Below are positions 42,887 to 64,000 of a stretch of 64,000 nt of DNA, piece by piece. The stretch is from Aquimarina muelleri DSM 19832 (GTDB lineage: Bacteria > Bacteroidota > Bacteroidia > Flavobacteriales > Flavobacteriaceae): contig NZ_AUML01000010.1 in assembly GCF_000430665.1 (NCBI RefSeq), positions 62,001-126,000 of the forward strand, written 5' to 3'. The notes beneath the pieces were generated by a model. That model did no database searches. It was not told the origin of the DNA and was given only the letters and a program-made list of their open reading frames with translations. The stretch's first letter is position 1; every line of letters begins with the position of its first letter. The position numbers and the translations under genes are program-made.

Positions 42887-43543
42887 TTAACTTAATGACA
42901 TAAATAAATCTACTTTTTTAATATCTATCAAAGAGGTATCAATTTTATCATTTGATGCTAAATGACATTTATAATTAGTATCTAAATTTATTTCCGTTAA
43001 AAAAAAACTATCTTCTTTAATTTTAGTTCGATTTTCTATAACCTCAAAAGAGTTTAATGGAATGGATAGCCCCATGCCATGGGCTTTTATTACCGCTTCT
43101 TTCTGTGTCCAATAATTAAAAAAAGCATCTTTAACATTATGTGAAGAAACAATATTCTGCCACTCTAACGGTGTCATTTGAACTTTAAAGTCTTCCACAT
43201 TGATGTCCTGCAAAACCTCTACATCTACACCTACTTCGTTATTTTGTGTTATTACACATACAACTAAGTTTCCAGAATGTGATATATTGAATTTAATATT
43301 CTCATTTTCAAAGTATGGTTTTTTGTAAGAGTTGTAACGTACATCTTCTACGCAAAGATGTTTGTTTAGTTTTTTTAAACTACTCCATAAAAGCACCCGC
43401 CCTAATAAAGATAATTGAGCATCTTGCCATCGCCTATACTTTAAAATTTTCTTTTGAAAATCATGAGAAAACCTTGGAGCTACCTCTTTTAAAAGATATG
43501 AATGATGCTCTTCACTTATATAAGAATAAAGTATTTGAGTCAT
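42887..43543 (-). CDS. 4'-phosphopantetheinyl transferase (Sfp-like)
   Basis: 218 residues. Motifs: FNISHSGNLVVCVI, GVDVEVLQDI (Mg-binding Asp/Glu) and FNYWTQKEAVIKAHGMGLS (WxxKEAxxK type). Transfers the phosphopantetheine arm of CoA to carrier-protein serines. As the last gene of the NRPS cluster, with a 102-bp gap to the ATP-grasp gene upstream, it is the expected activator of the two carrier domains (Ser994 and Ser1016 of the synthetases). It may also serve the fatty-acid ACP. Confidence 0.93.
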   Translation of the reverse strand: MTQILYSYISEEHHSYLLKEVAPRFSHDFQKKILKYRRWQDAQLSLLGRVLLWSSLKKLNKHLCVEDVRYNSYKKPYFENENIKFNISHSGNLVVCVITQNNEVGVDVEVLQDINVEDFKVQMTPLEWQNIVSSHNVKDAFFNYWTQKEAVIKAHGMGLSIPLNSFEVIENRTKIKEDSFFLTEINLDTNYKCHLASNDKIDTSLIDIKKVDLFMSLS

Positions 43544-43645
43544 TTTTGTAAGTTACTAGTTAGCTAATAAATTATAGTGTTTATCATTTTAAATTTATTG
43601 CAATAAAAATATTATTTTTCAGTAAATTTAAACTATAAAACGATA

Positions 43646-45046
43646 TTAATTGAACGAAGAAATGTTTTCATAAACAATTGCTTCTACGGCTCCTGTAGCA
43701 GAATTAATGACCCCTACGTCTGTTTTTACGGCAGACATTCGAACCCAAACACCACCATATCTTTCTCCAAAGCCAAAAGATCCCCAAATTAATTTGTGCG
43801 GCACCCATTCATTAGATCCGTTTGGTGCTAAAAAGCTTATCGAATCACTAAACTCTTGTGCTATAAAGTTATTCTTTTCTAATGCTAATTCTAAGATCGT
43901 TTTCCATTTTTCTGCAGTAGAAAACTTCCCTATAAAAACATCTTCTCCCTGAGCTCCATTTGCAGCCTTAATTACAAAACTATCTTTTTTTTGTGTTAGT
44001 AAATCAATGAGTTTATATTTTTGTTCTTCATATACTACCATACTATCTTTTATTAAAGAAGTCCAAGGAATACTTTCTAATATCAACATATTATCTTCGG
44101 GGGTAAATTTTCCTTGTTCTGCTAAATTTCTTAATAAAGCTAGATTTTTTTTATTTCTCAAAAACGATGTTCCTAAATGATCAGGAAAATATATATTATC
44201 CATTATAAAAGCTCTAAAAACATCCCTTGGGACTTCCTGAGTATTATCTAAACTAAAAAATAAGACACTATGTATTTCTTTACTATTTAGCGTTAGTTTT
44301 TTATCCACTAACTTAAGAGAAGAAATATCTCCAGAATATGCTCCTCCTTTAATTCCTCGTTTTTGTAATTCTACTTTTAATAAATCATTAAAAAATGCGA
44401 CGCCATCCTTCTTTACATCGGCATTCATGTCATTTTTTAAACTAACAAAAACATTAATTTCATTATTAACAGAAGGCACATATTGTACTATCTTATCTAC
44501 TAGAAATTCAATATAAATTAATTGGGTGTTTTTGGAATCATAATTATGCCTAGTTTCTGAACTGGATAATTGAGGATGTGACTTTCTAATTATAGATTCA
44601 AAACTTTGAACTTGCCATCCACCTATGGATGATCCCATATTAATTTCTAAAACCTTAAATCCTTTTTTTGTGTAGGTTAGATCTAAACGACATCCTATGT
44701 CAACATTTTTTTCATGTCCCATCATAGCAACTGCAGCTATCATTTCGTTACCTCCAAAATAAAAATCTGCAATTTTTTTAATATCATTATTAAAACATAA
44801 CAAAGGAATCTGATAGAGTAATTCTGGTAACTTTACACTCAATTTATTTAATCTAATCGCTTTTTCTTGATTAATTATAACTGGCCATGAACTTACTGGA
44901 TATTCATAATTTTTAAATACTCGAGGTACATTATTTTCTAACGTACTAATCCAGGTTGGTAAATTCTCTGAATGTTCTGTTGTAAATTTATCGTACATAT
45001 CTGATAGTATTGTATTTTTAGTACAAACTGTTAACGTTTTTTTCAT
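43646..45046 (-). CDS. Candidate circularly permuted ATP-grasp ligase, paralogue 1
   Basis: 466 residues. The metal-binding E-x-N motif of ATP-grasp enzymes (LEINMGSSIGGWQ, about 133-145; preceded by CRLDLTYT) comes before the ATP lysine and glycine loop (FVIKAANGAQGEDVFIGK, 357-374), the reverse of the normal order and the order found in glutathionylspermidine-synthase-like permuted enzymes. Conserved ends: YPVSSWPVI and HKLIWGSFGFGERYGGVWVRM. Such enzymes join a carboxylate to an amine through acyl phosphate. Neighbouring gene 45527-46915 is a clear paralogue. The cluster position suggests amide or peptide-bond formation on the NRPS product or its precursor. The substrate is unknown and the fold call is by motif reading. 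Confidence 0.7.
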   Translation of the reverse strand: MKKTLTVCTKNTILSDMYDKFTTEHSENLPTWISTLENNVPRVFKNYEYPVSSWPVIINQEKAIRLNKLSVKLPELLYQIPLLCFNNDIKKIADFYFGGNEMIAAVAMMGHEKNVDIGCRLDLTYTKKGFKVLEINMGSSIGGWQVQSFESIIRKSHPQLSSSETRHNYDSKNTQLIYIEFLVDKIVQYVPSVNNEINVFVSLKNDMNADVKKDGVAFFNDLLKVELQKRGIKGGAYSGDISSLKLVDKKLTLNSKEIHSVLFFSLDNTQEVPRDVFRAFIMDNIYFPDHLGTSFLRNKKNLALLRNLAEQGKFTPEDNMLILESIPWTSLIKDSMVVYEEQKYKLIDLLTQKKDSFVIKAANGAQGEDVFIGKFSTAEKWKTILELALEKNNFIAQEFSDSISFLAPNGSNEWVPHKLIWGSFGFGERYGGVWVRMSAVKTDVGVINSATGAVEAIVYENISSFN

Positions 45047-45526
45047 TTAATTAAAATAAAAGGTTGTTTTTTAAAAGAATTGAAAGACTATAGTTTAATT
45101 GTATATTACAAACAATAGATTTACGGATATTAGTAGTAAAAACAATAACTCTGATATTTATTTTAGTGGATTTATTCTTATTCAAAATTTCTTTATAATT
45201 ATTTCTGAAAAAGAATTTGTAAGGTGTTGATCGATTAAATATATAAAAGAGCTGGTCTCTATAAAACCAATCCCCCTATCTGTGCTATGCTTAATTTTTA
45301 TTCTTCACTGAAGCGAAAAAAAATCTTAATTTTCTTTTCCAGTAAACTCAAACTACAAATGGTATAACTATTTTAATAGCACTTTTAAAAGCTTCAACTC
45401 TCTAATAGTGTAAGCTTATCAGAATATTTTTCTATTCTATATATTTGTTAAGTATTTTATTATCGATTTAAATACTTATTAAGTAGTGATTATAATATTT
45501 TTGATCGTTAATGTAGAATATCTTGG
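45047..45526. other. 480-bp gap between the two ATP-grasp paralogues
   Basis: No ATG-started frame on the minus strand that could be a precursor peptide. A 9-bp inverted pair TAAGTATTT (45449-45457) / AAATACTTA (45470-45478) downstream of paralogue 2 could be a weak terminator. A stretch at about 45340-45362 (CCAGTAAACTCAAACTACAAA, slightly shortened) resembles the sequence just after paralogue 1 at 43619-43640, which may be left over from the duplication. Confidence 0.5.
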
Positions 45527-46915
45527 CTAATCAATACATTCATAAACCATCCCCAAGACAGCTCCTCTAGCAGAGTTTATTATTCCATCATCTATTTCTA
45601 CATCGACCATTCTTGTAATTACTCCTCCATAGGTATTACCAAAGCCAAATGAACCCCATATCAATTTGTGCTGTGTCCATTGATTCGAAATATTTGGTGC
45701 AATAAAATCTATAGAATCGCTAAATTCTTGAGCAATATATGCTTCCTTTCCTATAGATACTTCTATCGCCTTTTCCCACTCAGTTGCAGATAAAAATTTA
45801 CCGATAAAAACACTATCTCCCATACATCCATTTGCTATTTTAATTACAAATTGATCTTTCTGTTCCTTTAACAATCGAAGTAAATTGTGTTCTTGTTCTT
45901 TAAATGTTACTTTATCATTATTTATTACTACTGTCCAGGGAATACTGTTTAGGATCAACTCGTTATTTTTTGAGTCAAATTTGCCACTTAGGGCTAGTTC
46001 TCTTAAAATCGCCAAGTTTCTTTTGTCTCCCAAAATGGGGGTTCCTAAATGATCTGGAAAATAAACAGATCCCATAATATGAGCTCTAAATAATTCTGGC
46101 GTTATATTTTTTAAAGCGTAATCCATATTAAGAACACTATGAATACGTTTATTGTTTAAATATAAATCTCCTCTTATCATTTTAAGTAGCGATGCTTTAC
46201 CTATATGCACACTTCCACTCATACCTCTCTCCGTTAATTTTTGTTTTAGCAAATTATCAAAAAAGATGTCTTTTTCTCCCTGTGAATCAATTTCGGCATT
46301 ATTACCTACAATTACAAAAACATTAATTTCATTCTTAATCTCTTTTACATATTGAAGTGTTTTATCTATAAGAAAATTTAGATATGTAGATTGTATACTT
46401 GTAAATTTGAAATCATTTTGTGTGTTTTTTAATATATCATGTGATTCCCGAACTATCCCTTCAAAATCATCTAATTGCCAACCTCCAATAGATGACCCTG
46501 CATTTATCTCTAATATTTTAAAACCGCTATCGGTTAATGTTAAATCTAAACGACAACTTACTTCTATTTTTTTATTGTGACACATCATCGCATATTGCGC
46601 TAGTTCTTCATTTCCATTAAAATAAAAATGGGCTATAGAAGATATATCATTATCAAAATAAAGTTCTGGAATTTGATATATTAACTCTGGTAATATCACA
46701 CTTAATTCTGATAATTTATTAGATGTTTCATTTTCTAATATTACCGGCCAGGAGCTTACAGGGTATATGAAATTTTTGAGCGTTCCTGAGAGATTATGTT
46801 TTTTTATATCTATAATAGCTTCGAGGTTCTCTGATCTATTATTAAAAAACATATCAAATTTATCCGAAAGGATAGTGTTTTCTTTATTTTTTTGAACAAC
46901 AGTTTCTTTCATCAA
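45527..46915 (-). CDS. Candidate circularly permuted ATP-grasp ligase, paralogue 2
   Basis: 462 residues, similar along its whole length to the product of 43646-45046. E-x-N motif LEINAGSSIGGWQ at 135-147; Lys/Gly loop FVIKIANGCMGDSVFIGK at 356-373; shared segments SVYFPDHLGTP, YIAQEFSDSIDFIAPN and HKLIWGSFGFGNTYGG. The pair arose by tandem duplication and both keep the putative catalytic residues, so two distinct ligation steps, or a heterodimer, are possible. The start may be the second Met. It follows the S33 peptidase gene by 34 bp. Confidence 0.7.
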   Translation of the reverse strand: MMKETVVQKNKENTILSDKFDMFFNNRSENLEAIIDIKKHNLSGTLKNFIYPVSSWPVILENETSNKLSELSVILPELIYQIPELYFDNDISSIAHFYFNGNEELAQYAMMCHNKKIEVSCRLDLTLTDSGFKILEINAGSSIGGWQLDDFEGIVRESHDILKNTQNDFKFTSIQSTYLNFLIDKTLQYVKEIKNEINVFVIVGNNAEIDSQGEKDIFFDNLLKQKLTERGMSGSVHIGKASLLKMIRGDLYLNNKRIHSVLNMDYALKNITPELFRAHIMGSVYFPDHLGTPILGDKRNLAILRELALSGKFDSKNNELILNSIPWTVVINNDKVTFKEQEHNLLRLLKEQKDQFVIKIANGCMGDSVFIGKFLSATEWEKAIEVSIGKEAYIAQEFSDSIDFIAPNISNQWTQHKLIWGSFGFGNTYGGVITRMVDVEIDDGIINSARGAVLGMVYECID

Positions 46916-46949: not shown

Positions 46950-48890
46950 TTAGATAATACCCCAGTAAAACATATATGTTACTAATAAAACATTTGAGAA
47001 CAGTAAAGAAAAAACAATACTCCTATCCTGTATCCTTTTTATACTCATAATAAAATAGAGTATCGTAACTACAAGTAATATTACAAAAGTAATTATTAGA
47101 GTAAATACATAACTAAAATTACTGGTTAACCCAAAAGCTAAGACAAAATAGTTAGTGCCTGAAATCTTAATCAATGCTAAAACAAGACTAATCAAGCCTA
47201 CAATCCCTATAATAGAGGTTAGAATACCAAAACCCCTTATTATTTTATCCGAATTTGTATTGTATTTTCTTTTTACTAACCTTATCGTGTACGTAAACAC
47301 AAAAACAATCATAACTATCAAAGCTATAAATAAAGGAGCCATAAAAATAGGATCAAACTGACTAAGACTGTTTCCTATTTTGGCAACTCCAGAATTAATT
47401 GTGATATCACTAACAAAATTTACTTTTTTTACATTTTTAAAAGCCTGAAAATCTGGTTTTTGAAAAGGGTTATTTATAAATGAATCTGCTACTTCTTTTC
47501 CTATTTTTGTAAAACTTGGAACATGCCCATATGTTAACCCGTTTATTACGTTAGCCTTTTTAAATCTCTTAGCAACTTCTTTGCCATTAGCGGAGGGCGT
47601 AATTGGATCGTATTCTCCTGAAAAAACCATTACTGGAAAAGAGAAATCTTCTAATTTTGATAGATCATGATTTACGATAGAATCTTTACGGTTTAGATTC
47701 CATTGATCACAAACCCTAAAGTCTGATTTATAAAAAGATACCCCTCCTCCTATTTTGTCATATTTTGATACATCTTTTTCATATTCTGAAATGTTATTGT
47801 TTGGAAGGACTTCATTGCAACTGACGCAATAATAAACTCCATAATCCATACCCAAAAGATTTGAAAATGCACTTACCAAATTACCTAAAGCATCTGCATT
47901 TCTTTCTTGAAACTGATATATTAATAATGGGATTACTTCAATAAGCTGCTTATTGTATAATGCTTGTTGAACAGCAATTTTAAAATCTTCTGAATTATAA
48001 GTAAACTCTCCCGATTTTATTGTCTCTTTATCTACAGAAACAGTAATAGGATGATCTTCTAAATCTGCTATAGTTTTATAATATACGTTTTCTAATTCTG
48101 GATATTGACTATTACACGCTTCATTATTCTTACATTTTTCAAATACTTTAGATAAGCTAGAGATATAGTTACTAGTATTCTTAGTATAGTATGTAGTAAT
48201 ATCTGATACAGAGGAATCTAATATTAATGCTTTAATATCATCAGAAAATGTACTTGCATATACTTGTGCTATATATGTGCCATAAGAAACTCCATAAACA
48301 TTCCAATTTTCATATCCTAACTGCTTTTTTAAAGCGTTTAAGTCTTTTGATATAGATAGACTATTATACACTTCTATATCTATCCCTTTATTGATAAGGT
48401 CTTGTTTGCAAGATAATGCTGCAATTGTTTTTTGCTTTTCATCTTCTTCCTCTGATTGGTTTTTTGCTAAGATTTCTAAAAACTTGCTTCCCAAATCTGG
48501 ACATAATCTAGGCTCTGAAAACCCTGTTCCTCTTATATCCATCAATACGATGTCATTTTTTTTTCGTAGAGGGTGGTTACGCCATGATCTAACATTTTGA
48601 ATTCCGCTAGCTCCAGGACCTCCTTGTATAAAAACTACTGCATCTGCATCCGATTTATTAGATGAATTTTTTAATACAGAAACGGCTATTTTGATTTTGG
48701 CACTATTTATATCTTGCCAGTTTTCTGGAACAATAAGATGTCCCCATATTATATTTTTTTGTTTCAGACTTTCAGAATTTGGGTAAAAAGATTCTGCTTT
48801 TTCAAATTTTACATTTTGCCCTTTTACATTGTAGCATAATAAAACAATTAATACTATATATAAATATTTCATTTTTTTGTAAAGTTTCAT
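46950..48890 (-). CDS. Secreted S33-type alpha/beta hydrolase (peptidase) with C-terminal membrane helices
   Basis: 646 residues. N-terminal signal sequence (from Met7, YLYIVLIVLLCYNVKGQ). Hydrolase domain: VFIQGGPGASG (oxyanion region of prolyl-aminopeptidase-like enzymes, 87-97), DIRGTGFSEP, nucleophile Ser202 in GVSYG, Asp in FSGEYDPITP, and His in TYGHVPSF with a TAP-like C-terminal part. Then about four membrane helices (from about residue 525 to the end). The catalytic domain thus faces the periplasm and is tethered. It lies 35 bp after NRPS1, and so is likely part of the cluster operon. A role in trimming the exported peptide, comparable to the membrane-anchored ClbP of colibactin, is inference. 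Confidence 0.82.
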   Translation of the reverse strand: MKLYKKMKYLYIVLIVLLCYNVKGQNVKFEKAESFYPNSESLKQKNIIWGHLIVPENWQDINSAKIKIAVSVLKNSSNKSDADAVVFIQGGPGASGIQNVRSWRNHPLRKKNDIVLMDIRGTGFSEPRLCPDLGSKFLEILAKNQSEEEDEKQKTIAALSCKQDLINKGIDIEVYNSLSISKDLNALKKQLGYENWNVYGVSYGTYIAQVYASTFSDDIKALILDSSVSDITTYYTKNTSNYISSLSKVFEKCKNNEACNSQYPELENVYYKTIADLEDHPITVSVDKETIKSGEFTYNSEDFKIAVQQALYNKQLIEVIPLLIYQFQERNADALGNLVSAFSNLLGMDYGVYYCVSCNEVLPNNNISEYEKDVSKYDKIGGGVSFYKSDFRVCDQWNLNRKDSIVNHDLSKLEDFSFPVMVFSGEYDPITPSANGKEVAKRFKKANVINGLTYGHVPSFTKIGKEVADSFINNPFQKPDFQAFKNVKKVNFVSDITINSGVAKIGNSLSQFDPIFMAPLFIALIVMIVFVFTYTIRLVKRKYNTNSDKIIRGFGILTSIIGIVGLISLVLALIKISGTNYFVLAFGLTSNFSYVFTLIITFVILLVVTILYFIMSIKRIQDRSIVFSLLFSNVLLVTYMFYWGII

Positions 48891-48925: not shown

Positions 48926-51900
48926 CTAAAAACTAAAATCTATCTCTATGGTTTTTTCTTTTTCAAATTCTAAATCTGTATCTATATCCTCTATAGGAAT
49001 CTCAATACTATCTATAATTTGTTCAATGATTTTTATATATTTTAAAACTAAGATTTCGATAGTTTCTTTATCGTATTTATCGATATCATATTGAATCCTT
49101 CCTTCTAATTCTTGTTTTTGTACAGAAAAATTAATCAGTAATGGCAGCCTACTATATTTAGAGTCTATTGAGCAAGATTTTAAGCTTAGGTTTTCATTAA
49201 CATATATTTGATTATAACTAAATGTTGGATTTTGTAAAACTAGTAATACGTCTAATCGTAGATTATTATTAATATTATCTGGAATATCCTGATATGTATC
49301 CAAAGACAATAAATCTAACTGTACGTTTTCTAGATATTCTGAAAATAATTGGTTTGGATTTATTTTGGATCGCAATGGTAGTGTTTTTGCAAACATTCCT
49401 ATTTGAGAATGTAAATCTGGAAACTGCCGCCCTGAATTTATTGTTGCTAAACAAATATCTTTATGACCTTGTATCTTATAAACCAATACATTAAACACAG
49501 ATACCAAAAGTGTATGTAGTGTTATTTTTTGCTTTATTGTAATTTGGTTTAATTTTTCAAAAATTTTTGTTTCTAAATTAAAGTCTCTAAAAGCTGCCCT
49601 ATATTTTTCTATCAAAGGATCTTGATCAAATTGAATTAGGTTTTTCCATTCGTAACCAGATAGATACTGTTGCCAGAATTGATAATTTACTTTTTCATTT
49701 TTTTTCTTTGTCTTTTCTTGCCAGTCTACGTAATCTTTAAATTCAAATCCTAATACTTGTTTTTCTGGATTTGTTTTTACACTTAACGCTACATAACTAT
49801 CTATTACTTCTTTAATTAAAATTTCTAAAGACCATCCATCCATTATAATATGATGTGTAATAAATATCAAGATCTTGTCTCCGTTTGTTTTTTGAAATAC
49901 CCCAACGCGCAATAGTAATTGATTTTCTAAATCAAATTCTTGATTCATATAATCCTCAAGCCTCTGTTGTATATCATTTTCTATAAGAAATTTGTCTATC
50001 TTAAAAGAAATAGCATTTCCAAGATTAACTCTTTGATAAGGAGTTCCATTAATTTCAATAAAATTAGTTCTTAATATTTCATATTTCTCCACCACCTTTT
50101 GAAAGGCTTTTTCTAACAATGATTCCTCTATATCTCCATCTATTATAAAAGCTTCAGACATGTTATAGGCTATAGATCTTTTTTTTTCTTGAGAAGCTAA
50201 CCAAATAGAATACTGAGAGGATAAAACGTTATAAAAACTTTTTTTCTCTACTAGTTGTATTGAACTGTAGTTTTGTTTTTTTTCATTTTCTAAGTATTTC
50301 GACAAAGATTTTATAGTAGGAAAGTCAAAGATTGTCCTTAACGAAATTCTATAGCTTAGATATTCTTCAATACGACTAATAAGTTTTACTGCATTTAATG
50401 AATGCCCTCCTAATTCAAAAAAACTTTCTGTAACACTTATTGGTTTTTCTAATCCTAAAACCTCTTGATAGTATTTACTAAGTTTAATCTCCAGATCTGT
50501 CGTTGGTATTTGATTAGGTACTTGTTGTTGTTTTTGCTCTATTTCTATTTTTCTTAGAGATAGTGATTTTCTGTCAATTTTTTTATTTGGTGTAAGAGGA
50601 AACTTTTCTAGTGGTATAATTGTATGTGGTATCATATACTCAGGAAGTTCTTTACGTAACTTGTTTATGATTCCTTTTGGATCTACACTTGTTTCATTAA
50701 GGATTATATAAGCGATTAGAACTGCTTCTTGTTGGTCTCCTTTTTTTGCTATAACAACAGAGTTCTTGATATAGTTTAGTTGGTTAAGCTTTGTTTCTAT
50801 CTCTCCTAACTCAATACGATATCCTCTAATTTTAACTTGGTTATCATTACGCCCCATAAACTCTATCTCGCCTTCCCTATTCCATTTACCAATATCTCCT
50901 GTGTCGTACATCTTTTGTCCTTCTTCAAAAGGATTTTCAATAAACTTGTCAGACGTTAGTTTTTTATCTCTAAAATATTCTTTTGCTAATCCATCTCCTG
51001 CGATATAAATGGTTCCATCTGTTCCGACAGGTAGCAACTTTTTATACTTATCCAGAATATAAAACTTTGTATTATGTATTGGTTTTCCTATGTTTGAAGC
51101 ATTTTTTGATGTCTTTATTTGTTTGCAACTAGACCAAATTGTTGTCTCGGTTGGGCCATACATATTCCAAACTTCGGCACAAGTGTTTACTAATTTTTCT
51201 GCTAAAGATTCACTTAAAAGATCTCCTCCACATAATACTTTTAATTTTAAATCTCCACTCCAACCAATATTATATAACATTTGATAAAAACTAGGTGTTG
51301 CCTGTAATATGGTTGGTTGTATTTGCTCTAATTTTTCTATTAAAGCTATAGGATCTGTTAATGTATTTGTATCTGCTATATATAATGTAGCTCCTGATAT
51401 TAAAGGAGTAAAAAACTCTAATATTGAAATATCAAAAGATTGTGTTGTTACAGAGAATAATAAATCATTACTGTTAACCTTTGGTTTTTGCTGTATACTT
51501 AATAAAAAATTTAACAGGGATTGGTGTTTGATTGCAACTCCTTTGGGGTTCCCTGTGGATCCTGACGTATAAATTATATATGCGTTATCTGTAGAGTTTA
51601 TATTTGAACCATTTTTTAAAGTAATCTCGCTATTAGAATATAATACAGAGTTTACATCCACAAATTGAGCCTTAGGGGTAATGAGTTTGCTAAATTTTGT
51701 TTCTCCAATAATACACTCTACTTCGCTGTGTTCTATTATATAGTTTAGTCGTTCTTGTGGAAAACCTGGATCTAAGGGTATATAAGCTCTTCCTGATTTA
51801 AATATCCCTAATAATATTGCTATTAAATTTGCAGAACGATCCATCAAAACAGCGATGGGAGATGTATCTTTATTGTCAAAATTTTGACATAAATACTCTG

Positions 51901-53616: not shown

Positions 53617-55251
53617 TTAAGCCCAAAAATTTTCAACCAGTTCTTCTTCGTTATTTGCAACTACGTCTTTTACAATTTTTCCGTAATCAAATTTGATTAT
53701 TCGATCTGCATATTTAAAATAAGCATCATCATGGGTTACGGCTATAATAGTTTTTCCTTGCTCCTTTAATCGTGGAATCAATTCTTCATAAAAATACTTT
53801 CTAAAATGCGGATCTTGATCTGCAGCCCACTCGTCTAATACTAAAATTGGTTTCTTTTCCAGAAGTGCAAAAATCATCGACATCCTTTTGCTTTGTCCTT
53901 TAGAAAAATTTCTTCTTGCAGATTCTTCTTTATCATCGGTAACTACTCCTTCTAATTGCATCATTTTTAATAACCTCATATACTCTTCATTATTTTCTAA
54001 GGAGTAATCATCATAATTGTGAGAAAAAATGTGATTGTTTGTAAAAATGGCTGTCATCGAGTCTTGTAAATCTTCTTTTATACTGGCTTCTGGGTCTTTA
54101 TTTAAAATAATATCACCACTAGTTGGTTCATACAATCCCGTTAAAACATTTATAAAAGTACTTTTACCAGATCCATTACCTCCTACAATAAATAAAACTT
54201 CTCCTTTGTTAATTTCGAGATTAACTGGTCCTAACTTAAATGACTTTTCTTGATTTTCGCTTTTATAGTCAAAACAAACATCTTTAAAATTTAATGACTC
54301 AAATTGATAGTTTTTATTTTGGATAAGGTTTGTAGTTTCATCTTCTATCTGAAAGTCTTTCATAAAGTTTTTTATTCTTTTATTAGAAACCATAAACCTA
54401 GTATATAGTTGTTGTAGGTTTATTAAATTATTTATGGGACCAGATATAAAAAGTATTACCACTACATAGGCAATTACTCCTTCTCTGTCTAACAAACCCA
54501 AAGCTGGTAAACCAAATAAAATAGCTGCTATTACTGCATATAGCCCATATTGGCTAATCATATTAATGGACAAAAACACATAATTTATTTTAAAATCCAA
54601 ACCTTCAGACTGATCTCTATTTGGACCTAAGTGCTTTTGCATTATATTTTTTCTTCTGGATGTACTAATTTTTAATTCTTTAAAACCATTAATCAAATCT
54701 TCTACATAATTATAATAATGCTCATTATATCCTCTTAATACCGATACTTCTTTAGACATCGAATTCATTACTATAAAATAGCATACTGCTACTAAAACAA
54801 TTAAGACAACAATTACTATTGCTGAAATTGCAGATAGAGTAAACATGTATACTACACCCAATGCTAGCATTAATAAAGAGCTTACGGTATGGGTTACTGT
54901 ATATGGCAAACTGGAAAATAAACGCAAATCTTCCATTGCAGTATAAAATCGCTTACTCCCAAATTTTTCTAAGGTTAATAAAGGTGCTTTTAAAATTTGA
55001 TTGAATAAATTCTTTTCATTTTCGTATAATATCTTAAATGCGTATTTATTGAGTCCTTTCTGAAATACAACATTCAGTAGGTAAGTATACACTACAGCAG
55101 ACAAAAAGACGATAATCATATAGTCTTTTAAAAATGCTTCGTTGCCTGCAAGAACATTGTTTATTATATATATAATTCCAAAACTCAATATGGTATTTGG
55201 TATAGCATATAGTAATAAAAGAACGATGTCTTTTAATTTTAATTTTAACAT
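53617..55251 (-). CDS. Cyclic peptide-type ABC exporter (PvdE/SyrD-like), fused membrane and ATPase domains
   Basis: 544 residues. About six membrane helices in the first 290 residues, then an ATPase domain: Walker A GGNGSGKST, signature region FSKGQSKRMSM (degenerate from LSGGQ), Walker B KPILVLDEWAADQDP and switch His in AVTHDD. The DEWAADQDP and FSKGQ spellings are typical of the cyclic peptide/siderophore exporter family. Exports the NRPS product or its precursor to the periplasm. It stands at the head of the left half of the cluster, behind the repeat patch. Confidence 0.93.
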   Translation of the reverse strand: MLKLKLKDIVLLLLYAIPNTILSFGIIYIINNVLAGNEAFLKDYMIIVFLSAVVYTYLLNVVFQKGLNKYAFKILYENEKNLFNQILKAPLLTLEKFGSKRFYTAMEDLRLFSSLPYTVTHTVSSLLMLALGVVYMFTLSAISAIVIVVLIVLVAVCYFIVMNSMSKEVSVLRGYNEHYYNYVEDLINGFKELKISTSRRKNIMQKHLGPNRDQSEGLDFKINYVFLSINMISQYGLYAVIAAILFGLPALGLLDREGVIAYVVVILFISGPINNLINLQQLYTRFMVSNKRIKNFMKDFQIEDETTNLIQNKNYQFESLNFKDVCFDYKSENQEKSFKLGPVNLEINKGEVLFIVGGNGSGKSTFINVLTGLYEPTSGDIILNKDPEASIKEDLQDSMTAIFTNNHIFSHNYDDYSLENNEEYMRLLKMMQLEGVVTDDKEESARRNFSKGQSKRMSMIFALLEKKPILVLDEWAADQDPHFRKYFYEELIPRLKEQGKTIIAVTHDDAYFKYADRIIKFDYGKIVKDVVANNEEELVENFWA

Positions 55252-56060: not shown

Positions 56061-56086
56061 TGTCATCTTGAGCTTATCGAAAGAGC
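56061..56086 (+). repeat. REP-like sequence (GTCATCTTGAGCTTATCGAAAG)
   Basis: Resembles the TGTCAT(C/T)(T/C)TGAGCTTGTCGAA family of short extragenic repeats seen in Bacteroidota and other phyla. Single copy here, between the mosaic repeats and the thioesterase gene end. Call rests on recall of the motif only. Confidence 0.4.
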
Positions 56087-56219
56087 GATACAATTTTTCT
56101 TGTTACCCTATGAAAAACTCCTCAATTTGACGGCTTTTTTAAACCAAATTTTTAGATCGAGCTCACGTTATTTACGACTACTAAGCGTCCTACATTTAAA
56201 GAATGCATAACTGGAAATC

Positions 56220-56984
56220 TTACGGTACAATAGCAACAGTACATCTGTCTATAATGATCTGCGCTAATTCTTTGGGATAATCATGTATAAAAAAATGGTT
56301 TCCTTTAAAAATTTGTGAGCTAAAACTCTTTGAAGTAAAATTTTTCCAATTTTCAATTCTGCCTTTCTTCTCTTCTTCAGATCCCATCAATGCAAAGATA
56401 GGTGCGTCAATTTTAATTTCTTCTTCAGAAAAATCATCTTTTTCTAAAATTTCAAAATCTGCTCGCATTATCGGTCCAAAAAAATCATATAGTTCTTCGG
56501 ATTCTAAAACCTCCTCAGGAACTCCTCCTAACTTTCTTAGTTCTTTTTTAAAGTCAGAATCGTTCATCAAATATCGCTGTTGTTTTACTTCTAATTCTTT
56601 TATTCCTGGCCCTGGATTTCCCGAAACAATTAAATGTAAAGGAAGATCTCCTCTTTTTTGCATTTCGTTAACTACGGATAATCCAAGTGTAGCTCCCATA
56701 CTATGCCCATAAATTAAGTAGGGCTGATCATTTCTTAGCGACTTAACTTGATTTACATAATCTTGTATTGCTTCTTTTTTATTTTTAAGAGGACTTTCTT
56801 TAAACCTTTTACCTCTTCCTGGTATTTCTAAAGGGATAAAATCTATATCTGTATTTATATAGCTTCTTAAGAAATCAAAAGAATAGCAGCTACCTCCTGC
56901 AAAATGAAGCAAAAACAACTGCATTTTATTTTGTGGAAAACTTAACAATCTACTTTTATTAATTTGCTCTTTTTGTTTCTTCAT
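56220..56984 (-). CDS. Type II thioesterase of the NRPS cluster
   Basis: 254 residues from the Met at 56984 (earlier in-frame Met codons reach 56993). Alpha/beta hydrolase: LLHFAGGSCYSFDFLR, PLEIPGRGKRF, nucleophile in YGHSMGATLG, Asp in FALMGSEEEKKG, and His in FKGNHFFIH. Matches external editing thioesterases (SrfAD/GrsT-like), which remove mis-primed or stalled groups from carrier domains. Since neither synthetase has its own thioesterase domain, it could also release the product. It overlaps the 3' end of the receptor gene. Confidence 0.93.
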   Translation of the reverse strand: MKKQKEQINKSRLLSFPQNKMQLFLLHFAGGSCYSFDFLRSYINTDIDFIPLEIPGRGKRFKESPLKNKKEAIQDYVNQVKSLRNDQPYLIYGHSMGATLGLSVVNEMQKRGDLPLHLIVSGNPGPGIKELEVKQQRYLMNDSDFKKELRKLGGVPEEVLESEELYDFFGPIMRADFEILEKDDFSEEEIKIDAPIFALMGSEEEKKGRIENWKNFTSKSFSSQIFKGNHFFIHDYPKELAQIIIDRCTVAIVP

Positions 56985-59340
56985 CATTTCCAAATTTTCT
57001 GTCTCTAACTCTTATCTTTCTATTTCCAAAATTATACGATAATGAAAACCTAAAAAACCTTCTACTATAGTTACTTGAATAGTTGACTTCTACATCATCA
57101 ACTTCAGAAACAATATTATTCATACTACCCGTATCGAATATATCCTTAACATATAAAGATAATCGTAGATTATTTTTAAAGAAGCCTTGTTTTATTCCTA
57201 TATCCAGACCGTACCTTTCTCCATAATCTAACAATCTATCTTTATAAGGAGAACTATAAAAAAGATCAACTTGTAATTTGGTAGATTGGCTTAGAGAAAA
57301 TGTGTTATAAGTATCTAAGTATAATTGAAATCCATTTTTTGGTTCCGCATCCAAATCAATATCAAAATCAGATTTATATCCTATTAAAAATACCTGATTT
57401 TGACTTTCCCACCAAGATATTTTATTAAAGGTATATATTTCACCTATTCCTCCTTTATATCCTGTATAATAATTACGTCGAATTACTGCTTGTATATTAT
57501 TTTCTTTATCCGCAGTAAAAACTGTTCCAAAACCGTTAGATGTTGTACTAAAGAAAATATTTGTAGTTAATACTTCTTTATGTGTATAATTAAATTCAAA
57601 ACTATCTGTAAAAGAAGGCTGTATAAAAGGATTTCCTTCTGAATATGTACTACTATTGGTAAAAGTTCTGAAAGGATTTAAAATTCTAAAACTGGGTCTT
57701 TTAATTCTTCTCCCATAATTAAACGAAAAATCATTGTTTTCATTTTTTTGATACGCAATATAAAATGTTGGAAACAATTTTAAATAATCATTTTTATTTG
57801 TTTGATCTAAGGTTTTAGAGAACCCCTCGGTAATTGTATTTTCAACTCTTAAACCTACTTGCATTCTCCACTTCTTTTTTATTTCTTTTGAAGCATTTAG
57901 ATATAATGCCTGTACATCTTCTTTATATTCAAATTCATTAGATAATATAGGATCAAAAACTGGTTCTCCTGTTATAGTATTAAGACTTACTAAATCATTT
58001 ACTGTTTTTATAAAACTTAACTTAGCTCCATAGGATAGATTTATTGATTCAAAAGGGTGTTCTATATCTACCTTTCCACTAAAATTATCTATGCGTTGGT
58101 TAGATGAATTAATAGCGGCTTGATTTATATTTAAAAAATTGTCATCCGGGGACAATGTATTAACGATATAATCTCTTTTTAATTTATTGTCATAGTCAAA
58201 ATAATCGAAATCAAAAGAGGCTCTTCTTCCCAAAGTATCAATTTTTGAGATTAAATGAAAGTTATATAAATGGCTATTTATTTCACTCTCATTTTTACCA
58301 GAACTATCAAATATTGAATCTAGTCTATTTGTACTGTTAAAAATATTAGTTATTGTCTTATCTTTTCTATCTGGTCTATTAAAATTACCTAAATATTGGG
58401 CTCCAATCGATATCATTTTTGAAACATCATAATCTAAAGAAATTCGACCTGAGAGGTTATCTTTTTGCTGTTTTGCCTTTATTCTAGCATCCCATGGACC
58501 ATTTGGATATTTTGTGATAAAATCTTCAATTTCTCTTATTGCTCCTATATTTCCATTAACACTTAAACCTAATTTGACTTTATTCTTACTGTATAAAAAA
58601 TTATTTGCTACATTAAAAAAGTTGTATGTATTTTGGTTGTATGCTACTGTCGTTGAATTTTTCCAAGAATTTCTTACTCCTTTTTTATAGATTATATTGA
58701 TTAGACCTCCGCTTCCTGCTGCTTCATATTTTGCAGGTGGATTTGTAATAACTTCAATTTTTTTAATCTCTGAAGCGACAATAGAATTTAAAAAAGTCAC
58801 TAACTCTTCTCCTGATAGTTGTAACATACGACCATCTACCATAACCCGAGAGGCACCTCTACCAATCATACTAATTGCATCATTCTCTACAGTAACTCCT
58901 GGAGCAACACGCAGAGCATCTAAAGCGTTACCACCACTAGCTGCAATACTATTTTCTACATTAAATATCAATCTATCTGGTTTTCGCTCAATCAATCTTT
59001 TTCTGTTTTTTATAACCACCTCATCTAATTGCTCTGTAGATGGTTCTAAAAAGATATCTTCAAGAACCTGACTGTTTTCAATAACAATTTGCTTTTTTAA
59101 TTCTTTATATCCTAGAATATTTATTTCAAGTGTATAAGAACCTTTATCCGTCTCTAAAATAAAAGATCCGATTTGATCGGTTATATCGTAAGTTTTAATA
59201 GTATTTATAGAATCTTTTAATACAATGCTAGCAAAGGAAACGGGACCATTAGTATCTTTAATCAATCCGCTTATTTCTATTTGAGAAATTCCTGTGAATG
59301 AAATAAGAGATATTAAAAATATGAGTTTTAACTGTTTCAT
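56959..59340 (-). CDS. TonB-dependent outer-membrane receptor (outer membrane beta-barrel family)
   Basis: 793 residues. Signal peptide (about 1-19); a carboxypeptidase-regulatory-like beta sandwich (about 20-100, ISGLIKDTNGPVSFASIVLKD); a plug with LDALRVAPGVTVENDAISMIG, VMVDGRMLQLSG and VITNPPAKYEAAGSGGLINI (read in parts); and a large C-terminal beta barrel ending in RFSLSYNFGNRK. This is the FecA/siderophore-like rather than SusC-like layout. The location between NRPS2 and the thioesterase, with the latter overlapping, points to re-uptake of the product, for example a metal chelator. It starts 75 bp after NRPS2. Confidence 0.9.
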   Translation of the reverse strand: MKQLKLIFLISLISFTGISQIEISGLIKDTNGPVSFASIVLKDSINTIKTYDITDQIGSFILETDKGSYTLEINILGYKELKKQIVIENSQVLEDIFLEPSTEQLDEVVIKNRKRLIERKPDRLIFNVENSIAASGGNALDALRVAPGVTVENDAISMIGRGASRVMVDGRMLQLSGEELVTFLNSIVASEIKKIEVITNPPAKYEAAGSGGLINIIYKKGVRNSWKNSTTVAYNQNTYNFFNVANNFLYSKNKVKLGLSVNGNIGAIREIEDFITKYPNGPWDARIKAKQQKDNLSGRISLDYDVSKMISIGAQYLGNFNRPDRKDKTITNIFNSTNRLDSIFDSSGKNESEINSHLYNFHLISKIDTLGRRASFDFDYFDYDNKLKRDYIVNTLSPDDNFLNINQAAINSSNQRIDNFSGKVDIEHPFESINLSYGAKLSFIKTVNDLVSLNTITGEPVFDPILSNEFEYKEDVQALYLNASKEIKKKWRMQVGLRVENTITEGFSKTLDQTNKNDYLKLFPTFYIAYQKNENNDFSFNYGRRIKRPSFRILNPFRTFTNSSTYSEGNPFIQPSFTDSFEFNYTHKEVLTTNIFFSTTSNGFGTVFTADKENNIQAVIRRNYYTGYKGGIGEIYTFNKISWWESQNQVFLIGYKSDFDIDLDAEPKNGFQLYLDTYNTFSLSQSTKLQVDLFYSSPYKDRLLDYGERYGLDIGIKQGFFKNNLRLSLYVKDIFDTGSMNNIVSEVDDVEVNYSSNYSRRFFRFSLSYNFGNRKIRVRDRKFGNDEETKRAN

Positions 59341-59415: not shown

Positions 59416-62400
59416 TTAAACTAATATTAAATCTTTAAGACCGAGGATTCTTTTCTCTATAAAAGAATTTAGGCTAAAGTTTTGTTGGTTATTTTCGTAT
59501 GTTTTTTTTGGACAAACTAACCGTAATGATATCCCATTTTTGAATACTACACACACTAATCCTAATCCATAAAAATCATCCCACCAAAATTTTTCTAAAC
59601 TAATAGATGTTTCTGTATTTGTTTGATTTTTTTCTATCTCTCTGTTTTTTTGAAAACTAAAATTAAAATACCCTCTTATATGCTTATCTATATCCAGCTC
59701 TGAAAAATCTTTTCTAATAATCCCATAAGGTATTTTTTGATATAGTCGAATTTTTAGGTATTGCTCATACACATCATAAACATGTTCTTTAACCGATTTA
59801 CCAGCAGCCGAGATAATTGGTAAAGGCAAGAAATTAGTAGTAACTCCCAATACTTTTGTAATATCGATTTCTTCATAGGACTCTTCTTTTCCATTTACTG
59901 CTATCATTTGCATACAAGAATTCTTTACATCTAATTCTTCTAACAAGCTTTGATGAGCTCCCAGAAATAATGCTGTTATAGGTAATTTTAGATTCTTTAC
60001 TATTTCATTTATTATTTCATACTGTTCGCCAATAATTGTAGTATGCTGTACAACATAATCTGAAAATTCGTTTTTAATGGGTATTTTGGTTTCCACTAAA
60101 TGAAGATTTTTAAGGTAGTTTAGCCACCAGTTTCTTTGAGTGATCCCTTTTTTTGAGTTTAAAAAATTTTTCTGCCACAAAGCAAAAGAATCGTTAGAAA
60201 TACTAATTTTTGGTGTTTTTGGCTGTTCTAAATTAGCATTTAAATTTTCTAGAAAATCCCCAAAGGTATCCACATCTAATAGAGCATGTGCTATACTAAA
60301 ACGTAAATAAGCAGTATTCAAGTTATCTTTATCAACCACTATAAAAACACGAATTAATGCTGTTTGATCAAAATAGTTAAATACTTTTTTTAAAAAAGAA
60401 TTTGATTTTCTTTCAATTTCTACTTGATGTTTTGGAAGAAATCCTTCTAGTATATTTATATCTAACTTAACCTTATCTTTTGAAACTTGCTTTTGTAAAA
60501 TTTCATCTTCAAATTCTCTTTTCTTAAAACTCACTGTAAGTGAAGGATAGAAGCTTAAAAGATTACGAAATTTTTCTTCAAAATTATTTTTAGAAAAATT
60601 AGATATTACTATCGTATTTGATGATATCATCGCTGAAGGTTTCCTTAAAAAAAAGATTTGATTTTCTGAAACTAAATTATATTCATCGGATGATATATTT
60701 TTTTTAGTTGCATTTTGATGTACCCCATCGTTTAACTCTTGTATTTGTAATTCTGATTTTTTTTGTAGCTTACCAACCTCTATGGTGCTTTTATCAATTG
60801 TTTTAGCCATATCTTCTAGTATTGGATTTTCTATACTATCTCTAACACTAAGATTATATCCTTTCTTCTTTAAAAGACTTATTAATTGTATAGATTTTAT
60901 AGAGTTTCCTCCTAGATCATAAAAGTTATCTTTAACACCTACCGTTTTAATCCCTAGTATTGATTGCCATATAATCGCTAATTTTTTTTCTTCTTGGGTA
61001 ACTGGTTTTATATACTCTTTCTTGTTATAAGAATTTTCATCAGGACTTGGTAATGCCTTACTATCTATTTTACCATTGTTTGTTAATGGTATTTTCTCTA
61101 GTTGGACATAAATTTTAGGAACCATATACTCTGGTAACTTTCCTTCTATAATTTGCCGTACTTTTGTGAAATTAATTTCTTTATTGCTAACTAGATAAGC
61201 TACTAAATGTTTTGACCCGTATGCATCTTTTTTAACTATAACTACGGATTGCTCAATATCTTGAATCTGTTCTACTGCTAATTCTATTTCTCCTAGTTCT
61301 ATTCGGTATCCACGGATTTTAACTTGATGATCTATTCTTCCTATAAATTCTACATTACCATTGGGTAACCAACGAGCCAAATCTCCAGTCTTATACAATC
61401 TTGCTCCTTTTTTAAATGGATTATCAATAAATTTATCTGATGTTAAATCTGGTCGGTTTAAATATCCACGAGCCAGTTGTGTTCCTCCAATACATAATTC
61501 TCCTATAGCTCCTACTGGCATTAGTTGTAAATCTTTAGAGAGTATCAAAAACTCCGTATTTGATACAGGCGTTCCTATTGGAATATTCTTAGAATCTATT
61601 GCTGCAGCATTTGTTATTTTAAAAGTCGAAGCACAGATACTTGCTTCTGTCGGACCATACGCATTGTAATAACTTCCTCCATAAAATAAATAAGAAATAA
61701 CTCTTCTGTAATCCGATGCTTCTCCTCCTACTATTAATGTTTTTACATTTTTAAAGCTTTCTGGTTTCATTATATGAAAAAAAGAAGCAGGCAACGTTAC
61801 TATATCAATAGCATTGTCTTGAATATATTGTCCTAATAAATAAGGATTATTTCGTATTTCTTTATTCGCTATAAAAAGACTTGAACCAGATAATAAAGTA
61901 TTAAATATCTCAGAAATAGAGACATCAAAAGAAAAAGACATAAACTGTAGTACTCGCAGATTACTGGTAATATTAAAAACATCAATATGTGCCAAAATTG
62001 CATTTAAAACAGCTTTATGTTCAATCATAACTCCTTTTGGATTACCCGTAGATCCAGAGGTATAAATTACATAAGCTAGACCATTTGGTGAGGCATAATT
62101 TATATTCTCTAAGTCATAATTTACTACATCAAAAACACTGTCTATTACTAATAGTGAATCATTGAAAAATTTTATATCAGATATATAAGAATCATTAGTT
62201 ATCAAAACCTTAATATTAGCATCATCTATAATGTATTGTTTACGATCTAACGGATAGTTTGTATCTATAGGAACGTATACTGCTCCTGCTTTTAAAATTG
62301 CCAAAAGACAAACAATACATTGTTCACTTTTATCTAAATGAACTCCAACAAAATCTTCTTTATCAATATTGTACTCCTTTATTAAATAATTTGCTAATTG

Positions 62401-64000
62401 ATTAGATTTCTTTTCTAACTCTATATATGTTAGTGTTTTATTTCCAAATACTACTGCAACAGTCTCTGGAGTATTATTTGCTTGTTCTACAAATAATTCT
62501 ACTACTGTTTTACCTAATGGATATGTTACTTCTGTAGCATTAAAGACATCTAATATTTCATAACGATCTTTTTTGGTTAAGAATTCAATAGTACTTAGGG
62601 CTGCTTTTGGAGAGGATAGTAAATTAAGCATTAATTGCTTAAAATGTTGTATCATATTAGATATCATATCCTCATCATATATATCTGTATTATAAATGAC
62701 ATCAAGGGCAATTACATCTTCTAACTTTGTCGCATGGAATTCTATATCATTTTTACAAACAGTATTTCCTCTGTCTTTAATCTCATCTAACAAATGATCT
62801 TCTACACATGTAGTATTTTCAATATTTTTGTGTAGTTCCCATGAAATATCAAAAAGAGCTGTCCTGCTTTGATCATATTTTATTTCTAAATCTTCTACCA
62901 GTTTATCAAAAGCATATTCCTGATGTCTATAGTCTTCTACTGTATTTTCCTTAATTTTTTGATAATACTCAATAAAACTATCTGTTGGATCTATCGTGTT
63001 TCGTAAAGCTAAAATATTTACATAAAAGCCTATTTGATCTTCCAAATCAGGATGTGTTCTACCAGCAAATGGACTTCCTATAATTATATCTTTGGCAGAG
63101 GTATATTTGTGTAGTAGAATATTGATCCCAGATAACATCAACATAAATAGATTTCCATTATTTTCTTTAATAAATCGATCCAGTTTTTTGGTAACATCCT
63201 TAGAAAAATACCCTCCTAAACATTTTCCATTATATGTTTTACTCTTTGGGCGAGGTTTATAAGATGGTAAATCAATTATAGGTAGTTCTCCTGATAATTT
63301 TTCTAACCAATATTCTTTATGTCTTTTTTGAGTATCATTATCCGATTGTTCTAATTGCCAAGCTGTATAATCCTTGTATTGTATTCGTAAAGGAGAAATA
63401 TCCGGGGAAACACCAGAGAGATAAGCATTGTAATATTGCATAATATCTCTTGATAAAACATCTGTTGACCATCCATCACTAATAATATGATGCAAATTAT
63501 AATAATATATATATTTATCTTCAGATAGTCGAAGTAAACAGACTCGTAATAAAGGCCCTTTTTCTAAGTCGAATGGTTTGTAAGAATCATTCTTAACATA
63601 CTCTTTTGCAATTACCTCAGCATCTTTCCCTCTACAATCTTTATAACCAATAGCAAGATTAAGTTCTTTTGAATTTAGAACAAATTGCCTTATTTCACCT
63701 AAATCATCTACTTTAAATACAGTGCGTAATATTTCATGTCTTTCTATAACAGAATATATAGCCTTTTGAAAACATGTAATATCATACACTTTATCTAGAA
63801 CAATCGTGTTTGGAATATTGCATGCAATAGAAGCTTCTTCTAATTGGCTAACCAACCATAACCTGCGCTGTGCGTTAGAAATCTTATAACTATCGGATTC
63901 AGGGATCTTTTTTATATTTATAAAATCCGATCCTAAAGAAGATCTCACATCTTTTTCTAAAAAATCTATAAGTTCTGTTTTATTTTCTTTTATGATTTTA
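59416..64000 (-). CDS. Nonribosomal peptide synthetase, C-A-T-C* (N-terminus cut by window edge)
   Basis: Open from the right edge; numbering here starts at the GTG at 63948, which is probably internal. The codons before it read KENKTELIDFLEKD, like the end of a TubC-type docking domain. Condensation domain (about 20-450) with HHIISDG at 153-159; adenylation domain (about 470-965) with YTSGSTGNPKG at 629-639 and Lys960; carrier with Ser1016 in GGNSI; a terminal condensation-like domain (about 1085-1510) whose HHxxxDG is altered to A-H-A-L-L-D-V (1220-1226), keeping the second His and the Asp. Pocket residues by eye: D-V-S-T-I-G-A-I-C-K, 7 of 10 equal to GrsA (Phe). No thioesterase domain. Confidence 0.93.
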   Translation of the reverse strand, partial: KIIKENKTELIDFLEKDVRSSLGSDFINIKKIPESDSYKISNAQRRLWLVSQLEEASIACNIPNTIVLDKVYDITCFQKAIYSVIERHEILRTVFKVDDLGEIRQFVLNSKELNLAIGYKDCRGKDAEVIAKEYVKNDSYKPFDLEKGPLLRVCLLRLSEDKYIYYYNLHHIISDGWSTDVLSRDIMQYYNAYLSGVSPDISPLRIQYKDYTAWQLEQSDNDTQKRHKEYWLEKLSGELPIIDLPSYKPRPKSKTYNGKCLGGYFSKDVTKKLDRFIKENNGNLFMLMLSGINILLHKYTSAKDIIIGSPFAGRTHPDLEDQIGFYVNILALRNTIDPTDSFIEYYQKIKENTVEDYRHQEYAFDKLVEDLEIKYDQSRTALFDISWELHKNIENTTCVEDHLLDEIKDRGNTVCKNDIEFHATKLEDVIALDVIYNTDIYDEDMISNMIQHFKQLMLNLLSSPKAALSTIEFLTKKDRYEILDVFNATEVTYPLGKTVVELFVEQANNTPETVAVVFGNKTLTYIELEKKSNQLANYLIKEYNIDKEDFVGVHLDKSEQCIVCLLAILKAGAVYVPIDTNYPLDRKQYIIDDANIKVLITNDSYISDIKFFNDSLLVIDSVFDVVNYDLENINYASPNGLAYVIYTSGSTGNPKGVMIEHKAVLNAILAHIDVFNITSNLRVLQFMSFSFDVSISEIFNTLLSGSSLFIANKEIRNNPYLLGQYIQDNAIDIVTLPASFFHIMKPESFKNVKTLIVGGEASDYRRVISYLFYGGSYYNAYGPTEASICASTFKITNAAAIDSKNIPIGTPVSNTEFLILSKDLQLMPVGAIGELCIGGTQLARGYLNRPDLTSDKFIDNPFKKGARLYKTGDLARWLPNGNVEFIGRIDHQVKIRGYRIELGEIELAVEQIQDIEQSVVIVKKDAYGSKHLVAYLVSNKEINFTKVRQIIEGKLPEYMVPKIYVQLEKIPLTNNGKIDSKALPSPDENSYNKKEYIKPVTQEEKKLAIIWQSILGIKTVGVKDNFYDLGGNSIKSIQLISLLKKKGYNLSVRDSIENPILEDMAKTIDKSTIEVGKLQKKSELQIQELNDGVHQNATKKNISSDEYNLVSENQIFFLRKPSAMISSNTIVISNFSKNNFEEKFRNLLSFYPSLTVSFKKREFEDEILQKQVSKDKVKLDINILEGFLPKHQVEIERKSNSFLKKVFNYFDQTALIRVFIVVDKDNLNTAYLRFSIAHALLDVDTFGDFLENLNANLEQPKTPKISISNDSFALWQKNFLNSKKGITQRNWWLNYLKNLHLVETKIPIKNEFSDYVVQHTTIIGEQYEIINEIVKNLKLPITALFLGAHQSLLEELDVKNSCMQMIAVNGKEESYEEIDITKVLGVTTNFLPLPIISAAGKSVKEHVYDVYEQYLKIRLYQKIPYGIIRKDFSELDIDKHIRGYFNFSFQKNREIEKNQTNTETSISLEKFWWDDFYGLGLVCVVFKNGISLRLVCPKKTYENNQQNFSLNSFIEKRILGLKDLILV

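Follow-up and report, generated by a model that had tools for sequence, protein, structure and literature searches.

A conserved NRPS cassette of Flavobacteriaceae with a probable initiating module, a tethered peptidase and ATP-grasp ligases

Introduction

What kind of peptide assembly line combines two C-A-T-C synthetases with two ATP-grasp ligases, an exporter, a tethered peptidase and a TonB-receptor-like barrel protein? The question is raised by the right end of the window, that is, the whole stretch of 64,000 nucleotides analysed here (G000:C9:62001-126000), which comes from the draft genome of Aquimarina muelleri DSM 19832 (4.9 Mb in 100 contigs). The natural products of Flavobacteriaceae have been little studied, and the open-licence PMC literature yielded no paper on this combination of nonribosomal peptide synthetase (NRPS) and accessory genes. 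Colibactin-type prodrugs follow a cap, export and uncap logic, as outlined in PMC9889268. Herein, we ask how far the genes of this locus, and their counterparts in other genomes, are consistent with such a logic.

Results

Gene content of the locus

The region had originally been predicted to hold nine minus-strand genes with a coherent set of functions, among them an exporter of the PvdE/SyrD type. The ORF list and the Pfam and NCBIfam matches bear this out: nine minus-strand ORFs lie between 42887 and the right edge of the window, and the exporter scores above the cut-off of its family. The features are as follows:

42887..43543, minus strand, 4'-phosphopantetheinyl transferase (PPTase; Pfam ACPS, 56.3 bits)
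43646..45046, minus strand, permuted ATP-grasp ligase, downstream copy (P0002, 466 aa; 52% identity to P0003; RxD, ExN and both lysines conserved)
45527..46915, minus strand, permuted ATP-grasp ligase, upstream copy (P0003, 462 aa)
46950..48890, minus strand, secreted S33-type alpha/beta-hydrolase peptidase with four C-terminal hydrophobic segments (Pfam Abhydrolase_1 and TAP-like above cut-off; segments by hydropathy)
48926..53380, minus strand, CATC1, probable initiating NRPS module C1-A-T-C2 (Pfam; A code DILAVCMIW)
52067..53368, minus strand, C1, starter-type condensation domain of CATC1 (grouping with RzmA-Cs, 100/96; YHHxxxDG[aromatic]G)
48947..50245, minus strand, C2, C-terminal condensation domain of CATC1 (HHxxxD in 12/12; clade of its own, 100/100)
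53617..55251, minus strand, cyclic-peptide (PvdE/SyrD type) ABC exporter (NCBIfam TIGR01194, 307.3 bits, cut-off 286.2)
56220..56993, minus strand, type II thioesterase (TEII; Pfam Thioesterase, 117.8 bits)
56959..59340, minus strand, outer-membrane beta-barrel protein with CarbopepD_reg, TonB-receptor-like (Pfam OMP_b-brl_3, 317.9 bits)
59416..64000 and on to C9:126128 outside the window, minus strand, CATC2, C-A-T-Cx NRPS (Pfam; full length 1570 aa)
59434..60768, minus strand, Cx, degenerate C-like domain ending CATC2 (IAHALLDVDT replaces HHxxxDG)

Both of the predicted C-A-T-C synthetases are present, but they are not equivalent, CATC1 being the probable initiator and CATC2 ending in a degenerate C-like domain. 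The contig extends 13.8 kb to the right of the window, where it encodes a TauD-type oxygenase, a C-A-T protein and a larger C-A-T-E-C-A-T protein, and breaks off within an NRPS gene. The domain behind the first T of the larger protein was identified as E by its motif and by its own profile. TubC-type docking matches were found at the N-termini of the C-A-T and C-A-T-E-C-A-T proteins, with 21.3 and 28.6 bits, respectively (cut-off 26). The whole genome contains 56 Condensation-domain matches. A 62-aa ORF at 55668-55856 was considered as a precursor peptide and set aside, as it had no family match and sits in a repeat-bearing gap, and an Rfam search over 42000-64000 gave no match at E 1.

Conservation of the cassette

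Twelve cassettes from 10 genomes were compared, and all relatives sharing the cassette belong to Flavobacteriaceae. Besides that of the window, the cassettes come from G206, G561, Aureisphaera galaxeae (G542), an uncultured member of the family (G715), Flavobacterium humi, Flavobacterium sp. ZT3R18, F. poyangense (two), Tenacibaculum larymnensis and Kordia aestuariivivens (two). The order ABC exporter, CATC1, peptidase is kept in all 12 cassettes, and chance is excluded as its origin because nine other genomes keep the same gene order. The PPTase gene adjoins the ligase in 10 cassettes, and a TEII of the window type scores above 300 bits in 11, ZT3R18 having a weaker TEII and a fragment. A small additional ORF separates the ABC gene from CATC1 in G561.

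In the family-level search, the ligase was present in 4 of 397 genomes, and the full-length peptidase occurred in the same four (1088-1130 bits, next best 304.7); with a threshold of E 1e-40, the peptidase profile matched 48 of these 397 genomes, the four high scorers included. The phylum-level search matched 30 of 395 genomes, with close matches only in the window's genome and G206, the remaining 28 reaching at most 46.2 bits. A scan of genome contigs with two peptide patterns, not exhaustive in that the second Kordia cassette escaped detection, returned seven named loci, all of them inside a cassette. The proposal that the genes form one unit holds, and its stated counter-case, ligase and peptidase genes that do not travel with the NRPS genes, is not borne out by the family-level searches and the seven loci.

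The pairwise identities of CATC1, the peptidase and the best ligase pair correlate with r of 0.92-0.93 (11 cassettes; 0/2000 permutations), while those of the ABC gene correlate with these three with r of only 0.50-0.56. CATC1, peptidase and ligase are tightly co-inherited and the neighbouring NRPS modules vary; shared descent contributes to the correlation and may account for it alone.

CATC1 as the probable initiating module

CATC1 has the domain order C1-A-T-C2 without an E domain. The reference for starter-type domains was RzmA-Cs, an experimentally characterised lipoinitiation (lipid-starter) domain. In a tree of 77 C domains, which sampled 35 of 121 ordinary C domains and 5 of 17 E domains and held a single Cs reference, RzmA-Cs grouped with all 12 C1 domains, and with an additional C1-like one, at a support of 100/96, albeit on a long branch and with an odd composition; TycC6 fell among the ordinary C domains of the same tree. 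The motif YHHxxxDG[aromatic]G was found in 12 of 12 C1 domains and in RzmA-Cs, but in none of the 160 other C domains, 20 of which are without any HHxxxD match. Subtracting the TycC6 score from the RzmA-Cs score gave a mean of +0.6 in C1, as against -129 in 142 other non-E domains. Comparison with the PDB gave C1 98.2 to TycC6 and 88.1 to RzmA-Cs, and C2 136.1 and 47.0, respectively. The score with RzmA-Cs taken singly was rejected as a criterion for C1, as the raw scores of C1 and ordinary C domains overlap and the top one (107.4) belongs to another Kordia domain; the TycC6 contrast, the motif and the tree do separate them.

C1 begins at residue 3-23 in all 12 CATC1 proteins, leaving no space for a docking domain, and identity declines along the protein, being 60.8% in C1, 57.2% in A, 47.9% in T and 42.1% in C2. 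The A code, read by motif over nine positions, is DIL[AG][VI]CMIW in all 12 proteins. It resembles a Gly code, a resemblance that does not itself assign the residue X, and it is unlike the Asn code of ClbP-type caps. No FAAL domain was identified in CATC1. Chain-ending domains stand upstream of CATC1 in four clusters. The first F. poyangense cluster has a KS-T-reductase protein there, the second F. poyangense cluster and ZT3R18 have thioesterase (TE) domains (22.4 bits in ZT3R18, below the Pfam cut-off of 26.4), and G715 has a TE gene, with two NRPS genes between it and the cassette, before TEII. CATC1 is probably the initiating module rather than the last one, and starter-type initiation, taken alone, is a reading in which we have good confidence.

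A half-C gene at the probable start of the line and Cx at its possible end

Nine clusters have a visible start, and each of them contains an NRPS gene that begins with a half C domain followed by A-T. Over its first 235 or so residues, this gene product lacks HHxxxD and matches a C domain in the later part only (Pfam, weakly, in three of three tested). In eight of the nine clusters no other NRPS gene of the line comes before it, whereas in Kordia's second cluster it is internal. The half-C-A-T gene has no C partner and C2 of CATC1 has no A partner, and we propose that C2 feeds this gene. With a query built from the half-C N-termini, the window's genome gave one match, on contig C45, where the half-C-A-T gene lies directly behind a NusG paralogue. 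NusG homologues (55-61%) directly precede the half-C-A-T gene in G542, G715 and G561, and in T. larymnensis a PPTase gene lies between the two. Contigs C45 and C9 share no 25-mer by which they could be joined; we infer that the C45 gene belongs to the same line as the C9 cassette.

The terminal domain of CATC2 is one of seven degenerate Cx domains that form a single clade (100/99), and in several clusters the module that immediately precedes the cassette ends in Cx. It is possibly a release or recruitment domain and may serve chain release. An interface-type domain that recruits a tailoring enzyme was also considered, for Cx together with the TauD enzyme.

The tethered peptidase

The putative catalytic triad of the peptidase (S202, D428 and H456) is invariant in 12 of 12 relatives. 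According to hydropathy, the window peptidase and its relatives carry four C-terminal hydrophobic stretches, and these predicted segments would correspond to the C-terminal transmembrane bundle of ClbP-type peptidases. The Pfam matches are to Abhydrolase_1 and TAP-like, with none to Beta-lactamase, and thus an S12 catalytic domain is not indicated; by profile, the PDB relatives are Hip1, prolyl iminopeptidases and TnmK2. A DJ-1/beta-lactamase protein that replaces the ligase in the second F. poyangense cassette was rejected as a ClbP-like candidate, its hydrophobic segment being N-terminal only.

The ATP-grasp ligases

P0002 and P0003 are paralogues. None of 14 ligases (these two and 12 relatives) reached a Pfam gathering score; their best E values for CP_ATPgrasp_1 and CP_ATPgrasp_2 were 0.062 and 0.076, below cut-off, and a PDB sequence search with both window ligases gave no match. 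The ATP-grasp label that both had been given is nevertheless backed by predicted structure and a wider profile, with a fold shared over most of the chain with the GspS/YgiC/eukaryotic glutathione synthetase superfamily. Eight residues (R122, D124, E136, N138, K298, K359, Q396 and R435 in P0003 numbering) are present in 18 of 18 ligase copies and in all 11 rows of a wider alignment that includes six of 29 distant relatives; we take them to be catalytic.

The tandem pair had been singled out as unusual. It is indeed present, but it represents only one state of a copy number that varies among the 12 cassettes: six have a single copy, two have two copies and another two have three, one has a fused pair (926 aa, Kordia), and the second cassette of F. 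poyangense has none. The ligase tree points to separate duplications, not to two fixed classes, and several of its forks are weak. The ligase is dispensable for the core logic because the second F. poyangense cassette does without it. A link between ligase loss and the presence of a TE was rejected: a TE does occur without a ligase in that cluster, but in ZT3R18 and G715 the two occur together. The ligases probably amidate the peptide; most likely, each amide bond that they make on the product, be it one or several, links a carboxylate, for instance that of the C-terminus, with an amine or an amino acid.

Tailoring genes

Kordia's second cluster shares CmlA-type diiron hydroxylases with G206 and T. 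larymnensis, the clusters of the window, G542 and G715 have TauD oxygenases, and a HalD-type enzyme was found in Kordia's first cluster. G561 has HPPD-like, FAD-oxidase and aminotransferase genes reminiscent of hydroxyphenylglycine synthesis, and ZT3R18 has a PALP and ornithine-cyclodeaminase pair reminiscent of diaminopropionate synthesis. The differences between clusters suggest large modified peptides sharing one constant head.

Discussion

Starting from the computed gene set, its co-inheritance, the starter-type C1, the ligase fold and the conserved catalytic residues, we propose that a large NRPS cluster ends in the window cassette, which would serve export and maturation. The chain would be opened by CATC1, with C1 acylating a constant residue X, and C2 would hand acyl-X over to the half-C-A-T gene. 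After extension on the variable modules, the chain would be released via a TE, a reductase or Cx. The PvdE/SyrD-type transporter would carry the peptide, still capped, into the periplasm. There the S33-type peptidase, tethered to the membrane, would cut off the acyl-X cap, and the mature product would therefore arise only outside the cytoplasm. The YgiC/GspS-like ligases would add one or more amide bonds to the product. The acyl donor, the identity of X, cap removal, the ligase substrates, the timing and the product are the parts that we infer. For the mechanism as a whole, amide formation by the ligases included, we see the chances as evenly balanced.

The starter domain, the constant X, the exporter and the tethered peptidase may, by analogy, fit the logic of colibactin-type prodrugs. 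The logic proposed here is that of the ClbP-type systems (colibactin, xenocoumacin, zwittermicin and edeine), with an N-acyl-aminoacyl cap at NRPS initiation, export, and a tethered periplasmic peptidase that has a C-terminal helix bundle, and a cyclic-peptide-type ABC transporter accompanies both. However, the peptidase here is an alpha/beta hydrolase instead of an S12 enzyme and has four C-terminal hydrophobic segments instead of three; the module lacks both an Asn-like A code and an E domain, unlike an N-acyl-D-Asn cap module; permuted ATP-grasp ligases are added; and the hosts are Flavobacteriaceae. The cassette is not a member of the ClbP-type family because the peptidase fold differs and the cap residue does not have the Asn code; it may nevertheless work in a similar way. 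In pyoverdine maturation (PvdL, PvdE, PvdQ), a transporter of the same family exports an acylated precursor, which loses its acyl group in the periplasm; PvdQ, however, is an Ntn hydrolase that removes the acyl chain only, whereas the peptidase here is an alpha/beta hydrolase. Tentatively, and with the balance clearly against it, the cassette could be a second, independently built prodrug strategy made of constant acyl-X initiation, an alpha/beta-hydrolase peptidase and GspS-kind ligases, with the number of units added to the peptide after the assembly line depending on how many ligase copies (1, 2, 3 or fused) are present.

YgiC, YjfC and glutathionylspermidine synthetase are peptide-polyamine ligases as cited in PMC12568646. 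The ligases here are only 11-14% identical to these enzymes, have no Pfam family, stand in an NRPS cassette and are often in tandem. Cp1B, an ATP-grasp enzyme of E-64 biosynthesis, differs in being fungal and NRPS-independent and in coupling epoxysuccinate with an amino acid.

If the proposed mechanism is right, the cassettes belong to an unstudied natural-product family that is activated after export, and a portable cap-export-uncap unit serves very different peptide assembly lines of Flavobacteriaceae. A removable cap suggests self-protection and hence possibly potent mature peptides. Extension of a nonribosomal peptide by the ligases would need no carrier protein, and these could be of use as amide-forming enzymes, and whether prodrug activation arose repeatedly with unrelated peptidases would become testable. 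The conserved peptidase, the C1 motif and the ligase provide sequence handles for finding such clusters.

Among the alternatives, the one that survives best is that the ligase masks the product, adding a protecting residue or amine in the cytoplasm that the tethered peptidase strips off after export for self-protection. The ligase adjoins the peptidase in 11 of 11 ligase-bearing cassettes and the two are co-inherited with r of 0.93, as this would have it. However, the second F. poyangense cassette retains a peptidase (48% identical) without a ligase, although the ligase of the other cassette could act in trans, and the starter-type C1 already supplies a cap for the peptidase. We consider masking by the ligase unlikely.

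A lower probability still attaches to CATC1 as the last module, whose C2 would release the peptide onto a free amine, possibly made by the ligase. The physical gene order and the intact HHxxxD of C2 speak for it, and there is a precedent in glidonin, where, according to PMC10587159, a C domain adds a C-terminal putrescine. The glidonin termination module likewise belongs to an NRPS peptide with starter-type N-acylation and a C-terminal amine, but there the C domain places the amine, whereas dedicated ATP-grasp ligases are proposed here. The starter-type C1, together with the four clusters in which a TE or reductase stands upstream of CATC1, argues for initiation by CATC1 instead; moreover, were CATC1 last, Cx would directly precede C1 in seven clusters.

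An equally improbable reading is a siderophore cluster, with the barrel protein as uptake receptor and the exporter secreting the siderophore. The PvdE-type exporter, TEII and the TonB-receptor-like barrel protein would suit it, as would the TauD-type oxygenase gene in the window's cluster. Against it, the barrel protein, whose identified domains are OMP_b-brl_3 and CarbopepD_reg, is the least conserved member of the cassette (22-67% identity or not adjacent), and the tailoring genes indicate aromatic and diaminopropionate-type residues that vary by cluster; a non-systematic look at the genes identified here found no siderophore-specific features. Least probable of all is a separate mini-pathway in which CATC1, peptidase and ligase make a small N-acyl-X amide beside the big NRPS, for although CATC1 owns both a starter and a terminal C domain and the unit is tightly co-inherited next to varying modules, the half-C-A-T gene would be left without a C partner, and in the 12 cassettes the unit always accompanies a large NRPS.

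Proposed start of the assembly line and starter-like modules

L125:11479-12006 (contig C45 of the A. muelleri genome, G000), NusG paralogue
L125:11999-20707 (contig C45) and relatives, half-C NRPS gene
window 59434-60768, Cx, the final degenerate C-like domain of the NRPS CATC2
L132:1-7900 (contig C52 of G000), second C1-like starter module

The first NRPS gene begins directly after the NusG paralogue, and NusG homologues precede the corresponding NRPS gene in four of the eight other clusters. The paralogue suggests that a very long NRPS operon is transcribed with processive antitermination. In the half-C NRPS gene, which is conserved in nine clusters, the C domain at the start is reduced to its later half and lacks HHxxxD. 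Cx, one of a clade of seven members, forms the end of the last module ahead of the cassette (exporter, CATC1, tethered peptidase and usually ligases) in several clusters. The second starter module (32% to CATC1), which is interrupted by the contig end, is accompanied by ABC, TEII-like and class III aminotransferase genes. In the G000 genome, the tethered peptidase of the cassette was the only one found.

Product building blocks

L067:2867-6776 (genome G561), aminotransferase, HPPD-like and FAD-oxidase genes

These genes resemble a hydroxyphenylglycine synthesis set, which is rarely expected in Bacteroidota. An internal A domain in the cluster of the relative G206 (stitched coordinate 54683) carries the code DILAVCMIW, identical to that of CATC1. 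Judging from this shared code, residue X, the proposed substrate of CATC1, may also be present inside a peptide.

Ligase variants and intergenic gaps

L086:8034-10814 (Kordia aestuariivivens), fused ATP-grasp ligase pair
L081:2610-5003 (second F. poyangense cassette), DJ-1/PfpI + beta-lactamase-family protein
window 55252-56219, gap between the ABC and TEII genes
window 45047-45526, gap between the two ligase genes

The fused pair forms one 926-aa ORF. The DJ-1/PfpI + beta-lactamase-family protein adjoins the peptidase in the sole ligase-free cassette among the 12 compared. The ABC/TEII gap (968 bp) contains a 21-bp tandem repeat in about four copies and had no match in Rfam, and the 480-bp gap between the ligase genes contrasts with the mostly short spacers elsewhere in the operon.
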